Translations under genes and position numbers: made by a program | In this document: positions 560-6,167 of the stretch, piece by piece | Numbering within the stretch: the stretch's first letter is position 1 | How the letters are laid out: every line of letters starts with the position of its first letter | Assembly (NCBI GenBank): GCA_046760705.1 | Contig: JBHIER010000213.1 | Span: forward strand, 1 to 6,167 | Direction: 5' to 3' | Source: JBHIER01 sp046760705 [NCBI: bacterium] | Lineage (GTDB): Bacteria > JBHIER01 > G020348925 | DNA: 6,167 nucleotides | Notes under the pieces: generated by a model | What the model was told of the DNA's origin: nothing | What the model saw: only the letters and a program-made list of their open reading frames with translations | Database searches by the model: none

Positions 560-1966
560 ATGTCGAAATCAAAAGAGAAAAGTCTGCTCCTCATCACGGA
601 CATCGTCGCCTTCAACCTCGCTTTTGCGGTGGTCACTGTTGGTGCGCAGATAGGAGCGCAGGTTGAGGGAAGGTGGTTCGTCACCTTTCCCGAAAGACTG
701 AACGGAGCTCTGGCTGGGGCTCTCTCCATCTACTGGCTCATCTTCTTTACCCTCTTTGGACTCTATAGGTCCTGGTACAATCAGTCACGGTTGGACGAAG
801 TTTTTCAAGCATTTAAGGTCTCTTTCTTCGGTATGGTCATCCTGTCCATTGTCACCTTCAACCTCGAGGCTCCGTTTCTCCTTTCCGCTCTTCTTCTCTC
901 AGCCTATTGGTTCATTCTCTTCACCTTTGTCTGCACAGGCCGTCTGGGCATCCGTAGCTTTCAAAGACATCTCTTGATCAAGGGGATCGGGAGAAGGAAC
1001 ACCCTCATCGTCGGTGGAGGGACCACTGGTGGGGATCTGCTCAAAAAGATCAAGGGCCATCCAGCTCTGGGTTATGAGGTGATCGGGTTTGTGGACAAGA
1101 GGCCAGATGGGGTGCAGAATGGGCTGGACGGCGTGCCCTTTTTGGGCACCTACGAGCAAATTCCTCATCTGGTGGATACGTTGAAGGTGAGCGACATTAT
1201 TGTCGCTGTGGAGTCGGGGTCGCATCAGGAGATCCTGGATATTATCGACAGTTGCAACGGTCTGCCGGTGAACCTCAAAATTGTGCCGGATCTGTACGAT
1301 ATCGTGAGCGGTCACGTAAAGACGCAGGAGATCTCCGGGTTCCCCTTAATAGACCTGCTGGCCGAACCGATGGCCCCTCTGGAGCGACAGCTCAAAAGGG
1401 CCATGGATATCGGCGTCTCCCTGCCTGTGCTCCTCTTCTTCTGGCCGTTATGGGCTCTGATCGCCATGCTCATCCGATTGGACACGAAGGGATCTATCTT
1501 CTTTACCCAGGACCGGGTCGGAAAGGACGGGAAGGTTTTCGTCATGATTAAATTTCGCTCCATGGTGCGAGACGCCGAAAAGCGCACCGGGCCGGTGTGG
1601 GCCCAGAAGGACGACTTTCGGATCACCCGCGTCGGCCGGGTCATCCGAAAGTTCAGACTGGACGAAATCCCCCAATTCATCAATGTTCTCAAGGGTGAGA
1701 TGAGTCTGGTCGGCCCCAGACCGGAGAGGCCCTATTTCGTCGAACAGTTGAAGGATAAAATTCCCCTCTATACGAAACGGTTGAAAGTCCGACCGGGGCT
1801 GACCGGTTGGGCCCAGACGAAACATAAGTACGATTGCTCGTTGGACGACGTCCGCGAGAAACTGAAGTACGACCTCTACTATCTGAGAAACATGTCCCTG
1901 ATGCTCGACCTGAAGATCCTTTTGCAGACTGCGGCCGTCATGATCAAGGGGAAAGGGGCCCATTAG
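560..1966 (+). CDS. Polyprenyl-phosphate sugar-1-phosphate transferase (exopolysaccharide / O-antigen initiation)
   Basis: A 468-residue inner-membrane enzyme of the WbaP/WcaJ/GumD type. It moves a sugar-1-phosphate from a UDP-sugar to undecaprenyl phosphate, the first step of a surface polysaccharide. Hydrophobic segments lie at about 8-28, 50-68, 88-102 and 104-124, the usual N-terminal bundle. A Rossmann-like CoA_binding_3 region follows, with glycine motif LIVGGGTTGG at 149-158. The catalytic C-terminal bac_transf domain starts near KRAMDIG (279-285), has a membrane helix at about 285-305, the LDEIPQ segment with the catalytic Asp-Glu pair (368-369), SLVGPRPE (382-389) and RPGLTGWAQ (411-419). 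Full length is normal for the large family members. The start gives the expected short basic N-terminus before the first helix, although no good Shine-Dalgarno is visible. The sugar cannot be told from sequence. No other glycan gene is in the window. Confidence 0.93.
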   Translation: MSKSKEKSLLLITDIVAFNLAFAVVTVGAQIGAQVEGRWFVTFPERLNGALAGALSIYWLIFFTLFGLYRSWYNQSRLDEVFQAFKVSFFGMVILSIVTFNLEAPFLLSALLLSAYWFILFTFVCTGRLGIRSFQRHLLIKGIGRRNTLIVGGGTTGGDLLKKIKGHPALGYEVIGFVDKRPDGVQNGLDGVPFLGTYEQIPHLVDTLKVSDIIVAVESGSHQEILDIIDSCNGLPVNLKIVPDLYDIVSGHVKTQEISGFPLIDLLAEPMAPLERQLKRAMDIGVSLPVLLFFWPLWALIAMLIRLDTKGSIFFTQDRVGKDGKVFVMIKFRSMVRDAEKRTGPVWAQKDDFRITRVGRVIRKFRLDEIPQFINVLKGEMSLVGPRPERPYFVEQLKDKIPLYTKRLKVRPGLTGWAQTKHKYDCSLDDVREKLKYDLYYLRNMSLMLDLKILLQTAAVMIKGKGAH

Positions 1967-1978
1967 ATCCCCCCTGAA

Positions 1979-1992
1979 CTGAGAGAGCTCAG
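1979..1992 (+). other. Short hairpin after the sugar transferase
   Basis: CTGAG (1979-1983) pairs with CTCAG (1988-1992) around AGAG, 12 bp after the stop codon. There is no T run, so at best it is a weak terminator or 3' end stabiliser. Confidence 0.25.
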
Positions 1993-2008
1993 CGGCGCTC
2001 GGACGAAT

Positions 2009-2030
2009 TTGTCAACTCTTTTCTTGACAA
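2009..2030. promoter_or_regulatory. Inverted repeat overlapping the serS -35 box (possible operator)
   Basis: TTGTCAA (2009-2015) and TTGACAA (2024-2030) are perfect 7-bp reverse complements separated by 8 bp. The right half contains the whole -35 hexamer TTGACA (2024-2029), so a protein bound here would compete with RNA polymerase. The alternative is coincidence: any TTGACA has a fair chance of a partial partner nearby. The other TTGACA promoter in the window (5093) has no such partner. Confidence 0.4.
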
Positions 2031-2052
2031 CCCCTCCTTTTCTATGTATTTT
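2024..2052 (+). promoter_or_regulatory. serS: Sigma70-like promoter of serS
   Basis: A consensus -35 TTGACA (2024-2029), a 17-bp spacer and a -10-like TATTTT (2047-2052) lie just upstream of serS. Transcription would begin near 2059, leaving a leader of about 30 nt. That is too short for a T-box, so tRNA-sensing attenuation is unlikely. The same hexamer pair and spacing recur at 5093-5121. Confidence 0.65.
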
Positions 2053-2089
2053 TCCTCCGAGATGGGACCGTCACAATGAAAGGGACTGC

Positions 2090-3361
2090 ATGTTAGATCA
2101 GAAGTACATTCGCGAGAATGTGGAGGCAGTAAAAAGGGGTGTTGCCAATAAAGGGGAGGAGGCCGACATCGATGCCTTTCTCCGCTGGGACAAGGAACGG
2201 AGGGCACTGTTGGCCGAGGCCGATGGGTTGCGGCACTTACGGAACGTCACCTCAGAGGAGATCGGCCGGCTCAAAAGTGAGAGAAAGGACGCCTCCGAGA
2301 AGATCCAACTCATGCAACAGGTGGCTCAAAAGATAAAGGATCTCGAAGGGGAGATCAGGGAGATCGAGGCCAAGATCCAGACCGTCCTGTTGGCCATACC
2401 AAATCTTCCCCACCCTTCGGTGCCGGTGGGCTGCGGTGAAACCGACAACGTAGAAATAAGAAAGTGGGGTCAGAAGCGGGAGTTTGAGTTCGAGCCTCTG
2501 CCCCACTGGGAGATCGGCGAGCGGCTGGAGATCATCGACTTTCGGAGCGGTTCCCAGATGTCCGGTTCGGGGTTCGTCACTTTCAGAGGACTGGGGGCCA
2601 GGTTGGAAAGGGCGCTGATCAACTTTATGCTCGGACTTCATACCGAGAGACACGGCTACACTGAGCTGGCCCTACCCTTTGTGGTCAACCGCAGATCCAT
2701 GACCAACACCGGGCAACTTCCCAAACTGGCAGAGGATATGTACCTGTGCGAGCTGGACGACCTTTTCCTCATCCCCACAGGAGAGGTGCCTGTGACCAAC
2801 ATCTATCAGGATCAGATCTTGAGAGAGAAGGACCTGCCGGCATACTACGTGACCTATACCCCGTGTTTTCGCCGCGAGGCTGGCTCTTACGGCCAGGAGA
2901 CCCGCGGTCTGATCCGGGTGCATCAGTTCGACAAGGTCGAACTGGTCAAATTTGTCCGCCCTGAAACCTCCTACGATGAACTGGAAAGGTTGCTCAGGGA
3001 TGCCGAGGAGGTGCTCCAACTGTTGGGACTGCCCTACCGGGTCGTCTCCCTCTGTACGGCCGATCTCAGCTTTGCTGCGGCCAAATGCTACGACATCGAA
3101 GTCTGGGCTCCGGGGGTGGGAAAGTATCTGGAGGTCTCCTCATGCTCCAATTTCGAAGATTTTCAGGCCCGGAGGGCGGCCATCCGTTTCCGCAGAGAGC
3201 AGACAGGCAGGGTGGAGTACGTTCACACGTTGAATGGATCAGGGGTGGCCCTGCCCAGAACCGTCATCGCCCTCTTAGAGAACTATCAGACGGAGAAAGG
3301 AACCGTGGTCGTCCCGGAGGTGGTGCGGAAGTACATGGGCGGCCTGGAACTGATTGGCTGA
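2090..3361 (+). CDS. serS: Seryl-tRNA synthetase (EC 6.1.1.11)
   Basis: A cytoplasmic class II aminoacyl-tRNA synthetase of 423 residues, the usual length. It charges tRNA-Ser, and also tRNA-Sec where present, with serine using ATP. Residues 1-100 form the N-terminal domain with the long antiparallel coiled coil (charged heptads at about 34-100) that grips the tRNA variable arm. The catalytic core shows the motif 1 region GARLERALINFM (169-180), the serine pocket LIPTGEVPVTN (227-237; TAE in many homologues), motif 2 CFRREAGSYGQETRGLIRVHQF (259-280) and motif 3 with VSSCSNFEDFQARR (349-362) and TLNGSGVALPRT (380-391). The ATG at 2090 is preferred over the upstream in-frame TTG at 2009 because homologues begin MLD-like, AAAGGGA (2079-2085) lies just upstream, and a TTG start would fall upstream of the promoter's transcription start. 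No truncation or missing catalytic motif is seen. Confidence 0.97.
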   Translation: MLDQKYIRENVEAVKRGVANKGEEADIDAFLRWDKERRALLAEADGLRHLRNVTSEEIGRLKSERKDASEKIQLMQQVAQKIKDLEGEIREIEAKIQTVLLAIPNLPHPSVPVGCGETDNVEIRKWGQKREFEFEPLPHWEIGERLEIIDFRSGSQMSGSGFVTFRGLGARLERALINFMLGLHTERHGYTELALPFVVNRRSMTNTGQLPKLAEDMYLCELDDLFLIPTGEVPVTNIYQDQILREKDLPAYYVTYTPCFRREAGSYGQETRGLIRVHQFDKVELVKFVRPETSYDELERLLRDAEEVLQLLGLPYRVVSLCTADLSFAAAKCYDIEVWAPGVGKYLEVSSCSNFEDFQARRAAIRFRREQTGRVEYVHTLNGSGVALPRTVIALLENYQTEKGTVVVPEVVRKYMGGLELIG

Positions 3362-3372
3362 CAACCTAAAGA

Positions 3373-3395
3373 CGATGGGCCTGATGACCTCATCG
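3373..3395 (+). terminator. Weak hairpin after serS
   Basis: CGATGGG (3373-3379) can pair with CTCATCG (3389-3395) with one G-U pair and a 9-nt loop, starting 12 bp after the serS stop. Only a short TTT (3403-3405) follows, several bases away, so intrinsic termination is possible but poorly supported. Confidence 0.3.
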
Positions 3396-3418
3396 CTCAG
3401 ATGTTTCCTGGAATATTC

Positions 3419-3444
3419 GCCACAGAGGCGCAGAGACACAGAGA
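3419..3444. repeat. CACAGAG-type purine-rich dispersed repeat
   Basis: This non-coding segment reads GCCACAGAGGCGCAGAGA then CACAGAGA, an internally repetitive run of CACAGAG/CGCAGAG units. Very similar CACAGAGGCACAGAG tracts occur between genes in many environmental bacterial genomes, from memory. A shorter echo, CCACAGAGTCACAC, is at 5137-5150 in the next large gap. No function is known to me. Confidence 0.5.
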
Positions 3445-3573
3445 TAGACGAAAAACAAAATGTTATGAAATCCAGACCCGAAATATATGTCAGATCAGGT
3501 GCTGAGACGTAAAGATTAATATAAACATCTCTATCTGCTCCGCATCTCAGTAGTTTATGAAGGGTTTATTACG

Positions 3574-4824
3574 ATGCGACTTTTTCCGAAAGAGAACGGG
3601 CTCGGACCCTCTGGGCGTACATACGAAATGTCAGCCTTTTTTAAAGGCTGCCTCTTCATTATAGCCATCCTCCTCATTCTGGCCTTTCTCATCTACAGCC
3701 AATATGTGGTCCACCGATTGAGGGACAACGAGCGAAAGCTCCTCCACGTGTATGCCAACCTCTATGCCGCTGCCACCTCTGAGCTTTCAGACGGGGAGGA
3801 GCTAAGCCTCATTTTCGATGAAGTCATTCGACCCACAGACTTTCCTATCATTGCTACCACGGCCGCCGGTCAGCCCTATGCCTGGAAGGGGATCGGGGTT
3901 GAGGTCGACGACCGGAGCGAGAAGGGGTTGACCAGAGTGGGCCGCATTCTGGCCAAAATGGATGCGAAGACAGAACCCATCCCCTTACTGGTGAAGGAGA
4001 CAGGCCAGATCGTGGGCTATCTCCACTACGGTGACTCCGGCTTGGTGAGGCAATTGAGCTGGATGCCTGTGGTCCAAATTGTCGTCGTCGGTCTGTTCAT
4101 CTTCATCGGGTTCCTCGGATTTCGGAACATCAAGAGGAGCGAGCAGCGCTACATCTGGATCGGTATGGCCAAGGAGACGGCCCACCAACTGGGGACCCCT
4201 ATCTCGTCGCTGATGGGCTGGCTGGAACTGATCAAGGCCGGAGGCGTAAAGGAGGGCCTGGATCAGGAGAGGCTCAGAGAGATCGTGCGCGAGATCGAGA
4301 GCGACCTGGTGCGTCTCAACAAAATTGTCTCCCGTTTCAGCCAGATCGGCTCGGAGCCGAAGCTGGAGGAGCAATCGGTCATTCCCATCCTCTCCGAGAC
4401 GGTGAGCTACTTCCGCCAGCGCCTGCCCCAGTTGAGCAAGCAGATCGAGATCCGGGAGCGATACGATGAGATCCCTGCCCTGCGAGTGAACAGAGAGCTC
4501 TTAGGCTGGGTCTTTGAGAATCTGTTCAAAAATTCCATAGATTCCATCGGGGACAACGGCGGCCGGATCGAGATCGGGGCCGGTCTCAACCACGACAAGA
4601 ATTGCGTGGCCATCACCTTCACCGACACCGGCCGGGGCATCGATGCCAAGGCCCAGCGCAGAATCTTCGCCGCTGGTTACAGTACCAAGAAGCGGGGTTG
4701 GGGCCTCGGCCTGACCCTGGCTAGGCGGATCATCGAGGAGTACCACAGCGGCCGCATCATGCTCAAAGAAAGTACGCCCGGCCAAAGAACAACCTTCCTG
4801 CTGACATTACCCGTTAGAAAATAG
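3574..4824 (+). CDS. Membrane sensor histidine kinase, AHQLGTP-box type
   Basis: A 416-residue inner-membrane kinase. One membrane helix (about 24-43) and a second (about 164-183) bracket a periplasmic sensor of about 120 residues with PIIATTAAGQ (91-100) and GYLHYGDSGL (148-157). The cytoplasmic part has the phosphoacceptor box KETAHQLGTPISSLMGWLE (200-218, His204), then an HATPase_c domain with N box ENLFKNSID (315-323), G1 box DTGRGI (351-356) and GWGLGL (375-380). There is no HAMP or PAS domain. Glutamine after the histidine, where many kinases have Glu or Asp, marks a subfamily I associate with Bacteroidota and relatives. The ATG at 3574 has AAGGG (3560-3564) nine bases upstream; Met19 (3628) is a less likely start. 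The PorX-like gene downstream is the probable partner, as PorY is for PorX, but I cannot claim orthology to PorY. Confidence 0.9.
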   Translation: MRLFPKENGLGPSGRTYEMSAFFKGCLFIIAILLILAFLIYSQYVVHRLRDNERKLLHVYANLYAAATSELSDGEELSLIFDEVIRPTDFPIIATTAAGQPYAWKGIGVEVDDRSEKGLTRVGRILAKMDAKTEPIPLLVKETGQIVGYLHYGDSGLVRQLSWMPVVQIVVVGLFIFIGFLGFRNIKRSEQRYIWIGMAKETAHQLGTPISSLMGWLELIKAGGVKEGLDQERLREIVREIESDLVRLNKIVSRFSQIGSEPKLEEQSVIPILSETVSYFRQRLPQLSKQIEIRERYDEIPALRVNRELLGWVFENLFKNSIDSIGDNGGRIEIGAGLNHDKNCVAITFTDTGRGIDAKAQRRIFAAGYSTKKRGWGLGLTLARRIIEEYHSGRIMLKESTPGQRTTFLLTLPVRK

Positions 4825-4829
4825 AAACT

Positions 4830-4872
4830 GGTACACTGTGACATAAATTCTGTACCGTCTATTGGCAATAGA
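4830..4872. other. Two adjacent dyads after the kinase stop codon
   Basis: GGTACA (4830-4835) and TGTACC (4851-4856) form a 6-bp inverted repeat with a 15-nt loop. Two bases later TCTATTG (4858-4864) and CAATAGA (4866-4872) form a perfect 7-bp palindrome around a single G. There is no T run, so they may act as a 3' end structure for the kinase mRNA, or the 15-bp palindrome may be a protein site. Confidence 0.4.
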
Positions 4873-4926
4873 TTATTACGAAGAAAACCCTGTGATTGAT
4901 CTATGAGGGACAGGGAAATCTGAACT

Positions 4927-4974
4927 CGAATATCGAATCCCCGGCTTTCGCGGAGGGCAAGTTTTGGATATTCG
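4927..4974. repeat. 8-bp inverted repeat CGAATATC
   Basis: CGAATATC (4927-4934) and GATATTCG (4967-4974) are exact reverse complements separated by 32 bp. The flanks (GAATCC on one side, GGATTTCC on the other) echo the same GAAT/GATT words, suggesting a decayed repeat element. Confidence 0.45.
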
Positions 4975-5092
4975 GATTTCCAACAAGAGTTCTATCTGCT
5001 TTCAGACATTTAGAATGGCCGGTATTGAGGACAAGACTTTTGAGAGGCTATACTGGGCTGTAACTCTGCCAGGCCTGAGACTCAATTTCCCC

Positions 5093-5121
5093 TTGACAGC
5101 ACCCCATTTTTCGGGTATTTT
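5093..5121 (+). promoter_or_regulatory. Sigma70-like promoter for the PorX-like gene
   Basis: TTGACA (5093-5098), a 17-bp spacer and TATTTT (5116-5121) repeat the exact hexamers and spacing of the serS promoter; both -10 boxes are followed by one more T. The spacers also share a C-run then T-run layout. The start would be near 5128, giving a leader of about 250 nt that carries the inverted repeat 5203-5300. This implies the regulator is transcribed separately from the kinase. Confidence 0.6.
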
Positions 5122-5184
5122 TACCGTGACTAAGGGCCACAGAGTCACACCCCTCAACGGGGCTCAGAGAGCTTTCGAATCAAT

Positions 5185-5224
5185 TATGGGAGTACTGGAG
5201 TGTTGGAGTATTGGAGTGTTGAAA
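5185..5224. repeat. Five tandem 8-bp TRYTGGAG-like units
   Basis: The units are TATGGGAG, TACTGGAG, TGTTGGAG, TATTGGAG and TGTTGAAA, in perfect 8-bp register. The outer units are degenerate. The tract lies in the predicted leader of the PorX-like gene and supplies the left arm of the larger inverted repeat. Confidence 0.75.
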
Positions 5225-5300
5225 ATCTTAGCACCAGTTCCCAGGTCCCGCAGATTCAGATCTTAGCGCGGTCCACTACCCCAACTCTCCAATACTCCAA
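5203..5300. repeat. 98-bp inverted-repeat element in the PorX-like leader
   Basis: The arms are 5203-5221 (TTGGAGTATTGGAGTGTTG) and 5282-5300, whose reverse complement differs at one of 19 positions. They enclose 60 nt that contain a direct repeat, ATCTTAGC, at 5225-5232 and 5260-5267. As RNA the arms would make a long stem in the 5' leader. As DNA it looks like a small non-autonomous dispersed element. GGAGTATTGGAG-type repeats occur between genes in other environmental bacteria, from memory. Confidence 0.7.
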
Positions 5301-5377
5301 TTTGTCCCCCGCCCTGGTGGATAAAATATGCGGCAGGTCTCGGTTGCTGATGATTAAGGATAGGAATGGTGGAAGCG

Positions 5378-6167
5378 ATGAAGAGAATCTTGTGGGTTGA
5401 TGATGAGATCGACCTGCTCCGGTCCCACATTCTGTTCCTGGAGGAACGGGGTTACTCGGTCTCGGCTACCAACAGCAGCCTTGATGCTGTGGAGTTGGTG
5501 CAGAAGGAACCCTTCGATCTGGTCCTCTTGGACGAGATGATGCCAGGCAAAGACGGTCTGGCCATCCTCACCGAGATCAAGGACCTGAACCCTGGTCTGC
5601 CGGTGATCATGATCACCAAGAGCGAGGAAGAACGGCTCATGGACGAAGCCATCGGCAAGCGTATCGACGACTATTTGACCAAGCCGGTCAACCCCAGCCA
5701 GATCCTTTCGGCGTGCAAGAAGATCTTAGAAAGGCAAAAGATCCAACAGGGTCGGGTCACTCAGGACTACGTCACTGAGTCGAATCGGATCAGAAGCCTC
5801 CTCTCGGGGCCGGTTTCGTGGCGCGATTGGATCGACATCCACAGCAAGCTGGTCAAATGGGACATTGAGCTGGACCGCAGCGAGGACGTCGGGTTGAGAC
5901 AGAGCCACCGGGATCAGAGACACGAGTGCAACATCGAATTTGCGAAGTTCGTCGAACGCCACTATGCCGGTTGGCTCGAAGGGGGAGACCGGCCTCCCCT
6001 CTCCGTGGATGTCGTCGCCCAACACATTGTCCCTGAGCTCCGATCGGAGGTGAATGTGATCTTTATTGTTATGGACTCCATGCGCCTCGATCAGTGGGCC
6101 GCTATCGAGCCCCTCCTCTTCGACTATTTCACCGTCCACCGAAACTATTACTACTCCATTCTGCCCA
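5378..6167 (+). CDS. porX: PorX-like response regulator: CheY receiver plus PglZ/alkaline-phosphatase-type domain (3' end missing)
   Basis: Partial gene, 263 residues visible, running off the right edge. Residues 1-120 are a CheY-like receiver: acidic pocket ILWVDDE (4-10; Asp8, Asp9), phosphoacceptor Asp52 in LLDEMMPG (50-57), switch Thr80 in MITKSEEE (78-85) and Lys102 in TKPVNP (101-106). A helical linker (about 120-220) follows, then the beginning of a PglZ domain with VIFIVMDSMRLDQW (227-240; Asp233 a likely metal ligand) and NYYYSILP (256-263). The order and motifs match PorX, the Bacteroidota regulator of type IX secretion whose PglZ domain is reported to act on oligonucleotides. The sequence ends where PorX has the Thr nucleophile (ILPTAT); the single leftover base is A, compatible with Thr. 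No DNA-binding domain is seen. GGTGG (5368-5372) precedes ATG 5378; an in-frame ATG at 5366 with AAGGA (5356-5360) is an equally possible start, adding MVEA. Whether type IX secretion exists in this organism is unknown. Confidence 0.9.
   Translation, partial: MKRILWVDDEIDLLRSHILFLEERGYSVSATNSSLDAVELVQKEPFDLVLLDEMMPGKDGLAILTEIKDLNPGLPVIMITKSEEERLMDEAIGKRIDDYLTKPVNPSQILSACKKILERQKIQQGRVTQDYVTESNRIRSLLSGPVSWRDWIDIHSKLVKWDIELDRSEDVGLRQSHRDQRHECNIEFAKFVERHYAGWLEGGDRPPLSVDVVAQHIVPELRSEVNVIFIVMDSMRLDQWAAIEPLLFDYFTVHRNYYYSILP

Follow-up and report, generated by a model that had tools for sequence, protein, structure and literature searches.

A neighbouring pair of PorY–PorX-type genes in an uncultured FCB lineage and its probable link to SprA-type protein export

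Introduction

A gene for a sensor histidine kinase and the 5' half of a gene for a PorX-type response regulator lie side by side on contig JBHIER010000213.1 (assembly GCA_046760705.1), the analysed 6167-base stretch of which, read on the forward strand, is called the window throughout. The question raised by this locus is whether the pair controls a type IX secretion system (T9SS) or whether, as proposed in an earlier note on this DNA, it serves some other process in a lineage outside the classical Bacteroidota. In Porphyromonas gingivalis, PorX is phosphorylated by PorY, and the genes porX and porY are unlinked “orphans” (PMC4800418). PorX is a zinc phosphodiesterase which forms an intertwined dimer and is required for T9SS function (PMC10951265; PMC11320123), and in Flavobacterium johnsoniae its receiver domain binds GldL (PMC10951265). 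Our preferred reading, to which we assign a probability of roughly 0.78, is that the window contains neighbouring PorY–PorX two-component genes of an uncultured lineage of the Fibrobacterota-Chlorobiota-Bacteroidota (FCB) group, and that these take part in the control of SprA-type export.

The PorX fragment and its closest complete relative

Both reading frames announced by the earlier note, a kinase with an AHQLGTP box and a receiver-PglZ regulator, were recovered at the positions given there. The regulator frame is open from position 5366, and a start at ATG 5378 reproduces the numbering of the receiver residues Asp8, Asp9, Asp52, Thr80 and Lys102, none of which varies among the 96 aligned PorX rows, the window included; the alignment comprises the loci passing a motif filter, by which five of the 20 loci that represent the Bacteroidota-containing phylum (L095, L097, L098, L099 and L101) were excluded. 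The receiver domain of the window scores 92.3 bits. Though half of the protein is absent, the 267-residue fragment reaches 336 bits against the NCBIfam model NF052313 (T9SS_RR_PorX, cut-off 300) and matches solved PorX chains at an E-value of about 4e-68, far beyond chance, bearing out the PorX-type architecture. The motif IVMDSMRLDQW and the terminal SILP were likewise confirmed; the contig ends directly before the catalytic Thr, and the first zinc-ligand Asp is the only residue of the catalytic site inside the window.

One scan of genome contigs confirmed 104 relatives, and the analysis used the 80 best of these. The closest, L001 (CP070758.1), belongs to the metagenome-assembled genome (MAG) “Gemmatimonadota” bin29 and shares 78% identity over the PorX fragment. 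Its porX gene is complete; the product scores 670 bits against NF052313, has a PglZ domain over the cut-off, and can be aligned with the sequences of the solved PorX structures over almost its whole length. The catalytic and zinc-binding residues reported for F. johnsoniae PorX (PorXFj), namely Thr271, Asp237, Asp360, His364, Asp414, His415 and His499 (PMC10951265, PMC11320123), are invariant in every row of the 96-row alignment that reaches them, L001 included, so that the Thr nucleophile and metal ligands which the earlier note had looked for beyond the contig end are all present in the nearest complete relative. Of two residues of the dimer interface, Ser388 is invariant (92/92), whereas Ser384 is found in only 75 of 92 rows. 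Given the invariance of the catalytic and zinc residues, the PorX enzyme is very likely active in this lineage, and by extension the window's own PorX presumably is as well.

The gene order at L001 is sugar transferase, serS, kinase, porX, tsaE, tsaB, rimI, accD, folC, the first four of which stand in the same order in the window; the names of porX and of the next five genes were confirmed over the cut-offs. Among the best 80 of the 104 relatives, tsaE directly follows porX in 70 of 74 testable loci, small overlaps counted, and the same holds for 13 of the 20 loci from the Bacteroidota-containing phylum, where the flanks extended over only 1.5 kb. Of 67 testable loci, 40 have serS upstream. 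The shared porX–tsaE position across the group supports orthology of PorX with the Bacteroidota protein; together with the family score and the tree described below, it establishes this orthology at the level of sequence.

Phylogenetic position

A quick maximum likelihood tree of 92 PorX rows was calculated by a method without bootstrapping. It covers the aligned rows other than the truncated L027, L042, L057 and L077, the five loci failing the motif filter likewise being left aside. The window joins L001 at 100*, and both are placed, at 99*, inside a clade of 55 rows consisting mostly of Zixibacteria, with Latescibacterota, Eisenbacteria, and two other MAGs labelled Gemmatimonadota. This clade and the rows of KSB1 and Calditrichota form a group of 75 rows at 98*, window included. 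Outside this group stand L078, L079 and the 15 rows that represent the Bacteroidota-containing phylum; support for the root split is weak (63). The tree supports a position of the window outside Bacteroidota, as the earlier note had supposed, and the window would stem from an uncultured FCB lineage related to Zixibacteria and Latescibacterota; its PorX does not group with ordinary Bacteroidota PorX. The TTGACA-type promoters mentioned in the same context also exist as consensus matches (see below).

The labels of two MAGs deserve comment. L001 PorX stands apart in the tree from the two other Gemmatimonadota-labelled MAGs (L029, L038), and since these rows do not join L001, the doubtful label of bin29 has to be treated with care. 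L035 (WYBG01000482.1), from a MAG named Deltaproteobacteria, encodes a PorX that hardly differs from the one in the Calditrichaceae MAG L034, and for this reason is probably misnamed.

The neighbouring kinase as a probable PorY

The kinase combines two membrane helices, flanking an extracytoplasmic sensor predicted from a structural model, with HisKA (31.8 bits) and HATPase_c (65.7 bits) domains, both over the Pfam cut-offs; the phosphoacceptor is His204 in the AHQLGTP box. This box is present in the window and in 52 related loci, and in all of the 30 further loci returned by a kinase family profile (AHQLGTP in 28, AHQIGTP in two). At L008, a kinase match is located upstream of porX, but no open frame of >250 residues with an AHQLGTP box was found there, perhaps owing to a frameshift or a misassembly. 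When the sensor was modelled alone (mean predicted local distance difference test score, pLDDT, 75), its best structural likeness was to the WalK sensor (Z 8.9, root mean square deviation 3.4, 111 residues aligned); in the model, the domain resembles extracytoplasmic PAS/Cache domains at a middling Z score, and no Foldseek match at E <= 0.001 was returned for it. A fold search with the whole-kinase model was discarded as a guide to the sensor; the top matches were kinase structures and uninformative in this respect.

Because the kinase family co-occurs with PorX, the window kinase is probably PorY. A family profile comprising the sensor and HisKA, with the ATPase domain left out, gave one full match in 42 of 43 PorX-positive genomes, either beside porX or elsewhere, and no match in the 7 PorX-negative genomes searched; each of the 14 GldM-positive genomes likewise contained one full match. 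In G014, two in-frame stops lie inside the full match, and an extra 36-bit kinase fragment was found. Direct linkage is frequent: of 79 testable loci, 54 have the kinase gene immediately upstream of porX. These are 50 of 53 in the clade of the window (the exceptions being L012, L038 and L072), none of the 20 rows of the KSB1/Calditrichota branches, and four truncated-porX loci outside the tree. That the kinase beside porX is not PorY, PorX receiving its phosphate from another kinase or from acetyl phosphate, would fit the observation that deletion of porY in P. gingivalis has milder effects than deletion of porX (PMC8050853; PMC11320123), as well as the 553-bp gap between the two genes of the window, which has a promoter match of its own. 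However, the family accompanies PorX even where the genes are unlinked and is absent from the 7 PorX-negative genomes searched, and this together with the frequent adjacency renders the explanation very improbable. The two genes need not share a transcript, since the gap holds a promoter match; cotranscription in the window is possible.

Co-occurrence of PorX with SprA, PorV and cargo domains

Components of type IX secretion were searched for in 50 related genomes, chosen from the 80 loci with a preference for varied names and complete chromosomes. The nearest genome, bin29, contains SprA, PorV-family proteins and many T9SS C-terminal domains. In the whole set, SprA (TIGR04189) is over the cut-off in 47 genomes, and the PorV family and T9SS C-terminal domains each in 50; the PorV model matched one of 14 control genomes, none over the cut-off. 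A second set of 61 genomes represents the phylum of G048, a “Bacteroidetes” MAG. Here, PorX is over the cut-off in 48 and SprA in 47 genomes (46 of 60, plus G048), and the two agree in 60 of 61 cases: 47 genomes have both, 13 have neither, and one (G052) has PorX only, so that SprA occurs in 47 of the 48 PorX-positive genomes of this Bacteroidota-containing phylum. Fisher's test for the association gives p = 2e-12, to be read with the reservation that the genomes are related and that the 13 with neither protein may belong to a single clade. In ten of the 47 genomes, sprA directly precedes porX on the same strand, with match ends 26 to 188 bp apart, and GldM is over the cut-off in none of these ten. 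At L078, the order is sprA-porX-tsaE-tsaB-accD.

Several observations weigh against control of SprA-type export by the pair. Three of the 50 related genomes lack SprA over the cut-off, as there was no match in G008, a match below the cut-off in G003, and one at E 6.5e-4 in G047, which is also the sole PorX-positive genome without a kinase match; G052 possesses PorX and GldM over the cut-offs and zero SprA candidates, a gap due to an incomplete assembly or to real loss. The model for T9SS C-terminal domains matches two of the 14 control genomes, one of them over the cut-off, and the cases of co-occurrence are not independent, the sampled genomes being related. The species of the window is known from its contig alone, the SprA evidence coming from genomes of relatives, in which T9SS was judged on SprA, the PorV family and C-terminal domains. 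Furthermore, the second half of the window's PorX lies beyond the contig end, the 553-bp gap with its promoter match separates it from the kinase gene, and the kinase was likened to P. gingivalis PorY (PGN_2001) by description only.

The suggestion of the earlier note, that the pair has a function outside type IX secretion, for example in free-standing oligonucleotide signalling, could draw upon the occurrence of PorX without SprA over the cut-off in G003, G008, G047 and G052, the full conservation of the phosphodiesterase residues, and the lack of detection of the motor that is bound by Flavobacterium PorX. It is opposed by the finding of SprA, PorV-family proteins and cargo C-terminal domains in bin29, by the agreement of PorX and SprA in 60 of 61 genomes, and by the sprA–porX adjacency in ten genomes. 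A departure of the PorY–PorX pair from type IX secretion is therefore not supported, and we consider it very unlikely; of the earlier note's double proposal, the lineage outside Bacteroidota has stood up and the different process has not. The residues that a nucleotide signal under direct control of phosphorylation, as mooted in the note, would require are conserved.

The GldLMN motor

In the 61-genome set, GldM (TIGR03517) is over the cut-off in 14 genomes, which are exactly the 14 top PorX scorers, whereas in the 50 related genomes neither GldM nor GldL (TIGR03513) is over the cut-off in any. A single weak GldL match of 24 bits, in G007, was rejected, because the open reading frame carries Band_7 and flotillin domains. 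Searches were extended to 80 genomes, comprising the 50, 28 of 33 further PorX-positive/GldM-negative genomes and two GldM-positive controls, with a GldL N-terminal profile made from 13 of the 14 GldM loci and a divergent protein of G072. This profile recovered its own members in G062, G091 and G072 and one new match of 31 bits in G014; a match in G059 (E 0.04) was dismissed as noise. The GldN model (PF19841) detected only the two positive controls among the 80 genomes, and it missed the divergent operon of G072. G072 (L120, 362-3168) and G014 (L129) contain divergent GldL/GldM-like gene pairs which the curated TIGR models miss or barely reach; the pair of G072 is followed by a GldN-sized gene, and its GldL-like member scores 24.0 bits for GldL_N, exactly the cut-off. 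Firm absence of GldLMN was rejected in view of these pairs, and since they exist and the GldN model missed G072, “not detected” is the appropriate wording; absence of GldL, GldM and GldN from the lineages related to the window is suggested, not proven. Of the components named by the earlier note for a genome search, SprA and the PorV family were found in bin29 and GldLMN were not detected.

Whether the pair belongs to an ordinary PorXY system of a complete, motor-driven T9SS, the GldLMN proteins of which are present in forms too diverged for the profiles, is in our view evenly balanced. The divergent pairs of G072 and G014 and the failure of the GldN model on the G072 operon speak for it, as does a cryo-EM study inferring that energy input is needed for substrate release (PMC10994853). 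On the other side, the GldL profile, although it includes G072, gained one new member above noise (G014) in the 80 genomes, 78 of which were not controls, and according to a 2020 study “Incertae sedis” Bacteroidetes possess Sov, PorV, PorX and PorY but not PorK, L, M and N (PMC7323717).

Proposed mechanism and implications

For neighbouring PorY–PorX genes controlling SprA-type export, the following sequence of events may be envisaged. The extracytoplasmic sensor would control phosphorylation of His204, from which the phosphate would pass to Asp52 of PorX; phospho-PorX would dimerize as in the solved structures, and the dimer would switch the zinc phosphodiesterase (PglZ) domain, the output of which might promote expression or activity of the SprA-type export system. 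Because GldL was not detected in the nearest genome, an enzymatic or transcriptional output of PorX is more likely here than direct binding to the motor.

A more far-reaching idea, which we regard as doubtful at present, is that PorY–PorX forms the ancestral regulatory core of an SprA-type secretion system which, in Zixibacteria, Latescibacterota, Calditrichota, KSB1 and relatives, operates with no GldLMN rotary motor or with an unrelated motor. If so, GldL binding would be a late addition to PorX in Bacteroidia, and PorX would originally have acted by hydrolysing an oligonucleotide signal, by controlling transcription, or both. The linkage of porY to porX, and a PorX which tracks SprA without a detectable motor, also bear on the role of PorY as the main kinase and on the GldL route. 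A survey using a T9SS model that includes GldJ, GldK, GldL, GldM and GldN profiles reported T9SS in Bacteroidetes only (PMC4793230); models of this kind could overlook such systems. In the literature covered, which excluded most subscription papers and preprints, neither a linked porY–porX pair nor the pattern of PorX and SprA without motor outside Bacteroidota is reported. The locus belongs to an under-described lineage, and its wider use lies in the linkage of kinase and regulator and in the dissociation of PorX from a detectable motor; such lineages also provide proteins of uncultured environmental bacteria for phosphotransfer and phosphodiesterase assays.

Other features of the window

The window contains four genes on the + strand, the last of them the 5' half of porX (Table 1). 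Matches to the promoter consensus of the form TTGACA-17-TATTTT occur at two sites, 2024-2052 (before serS) and 5093-5121 (before porX); in the region 1960-5420, five promoter-like matches were counted, as compared to 1.8 +/- 1.3 in shuffled sequences. The kinase-porX gap includes units of the type GGAGTATT with a period of 8 bases (5189-5300) and a 19-nt inverted repeat (5203-5221/5282-5300; 95% complementary, 60 nt apart); these repeats are perhaps a small mobile or structural element. The left end, which is non-coding, contains a 26-nt exact direct repeat (167-192 and 274-299, 107 bases apart). A CACAGAGGCGCAGAGACACAGAG stretch lies at 3421-3450, between serS and the kinase gene; stretches of this kind recur between the genes of many environmental genomes.

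Table 1. Positions of genes and elements in the 6167-base window
Feature	Position	Strand	Basis
Exopolysaccharide sugar transferase	560-1966	+	Open reading frame
serS	2090-3361	+	TIGR00414, 524 bits; gene order serS-kinase-porX-tsaE is conserved
Sensor histidine kinase, 416 aa, probable PorY orthologue (ATG at 3574, stop ending at 4824)	3574-4824	+	HisKA and HATPase_c over cut-off; family co-occurrence with PorX
Kinase extracytoplasmic sensor region, between two membrane helices	3703-4068	+	PAS/Cache-like in model, pLDDT 75
Kinase phosphoacceptor box MAKETAHQLGTP, His204 at 4183-4185	4162-4221	+	Sequence; AHQLGTP in relatives
Sigma-70-like promoter match before porX	5093-5121	+	Consensus scan, 10/12 matches; not evidence of function
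porX 5' part: receiver, helical linker, PglZ start; cut by window end	5378-6167	+	NF052313; PorX structures
PglZ first zinc-ligand Asp (Asp237 in PorXFj)	6074-6076	+	Alignment, 96/96 rows; role from PMC10951265

Comparison with known systems

PglZ proteins of bacteriophage exclusion (BREX) systems have the alkaline-phosphatase-like PglZ domain in common with PorX (PMC12839542), whereas the receiver domain is a feature of PorX; L001 PorX reaches only 105 bits with BREX_PglZ_3, which is under the cut-off of 250, as against 670 bits with the PorX model. The PorX proteins of F. johnsoniae and P. gingivalis (NF052313; PDB 8ted, 8p6f, 7pv7) show the same order of receiver, three-helix linker and PglZ domain, and L001 and its relatives share with them the catalytic Thr and all zinc ligands, tsaE adjoining porX in many genomes. 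The lineage of the window differs in its position outside Bacteroidota and in that the GldL partner went undetected in the nearest genome and in nearly all relatives. PorY of P. gingivalis has been described as a protein with two membrane segments and HisKA and ATPase regions, encoded by a gene of about 1185 nt (PMC4800418), and thus has the same membrane segments and domains as the window kinase at a similar length; whereas porX and porY are unlinked in that organism, the kinase gene adjoins porX in the window.

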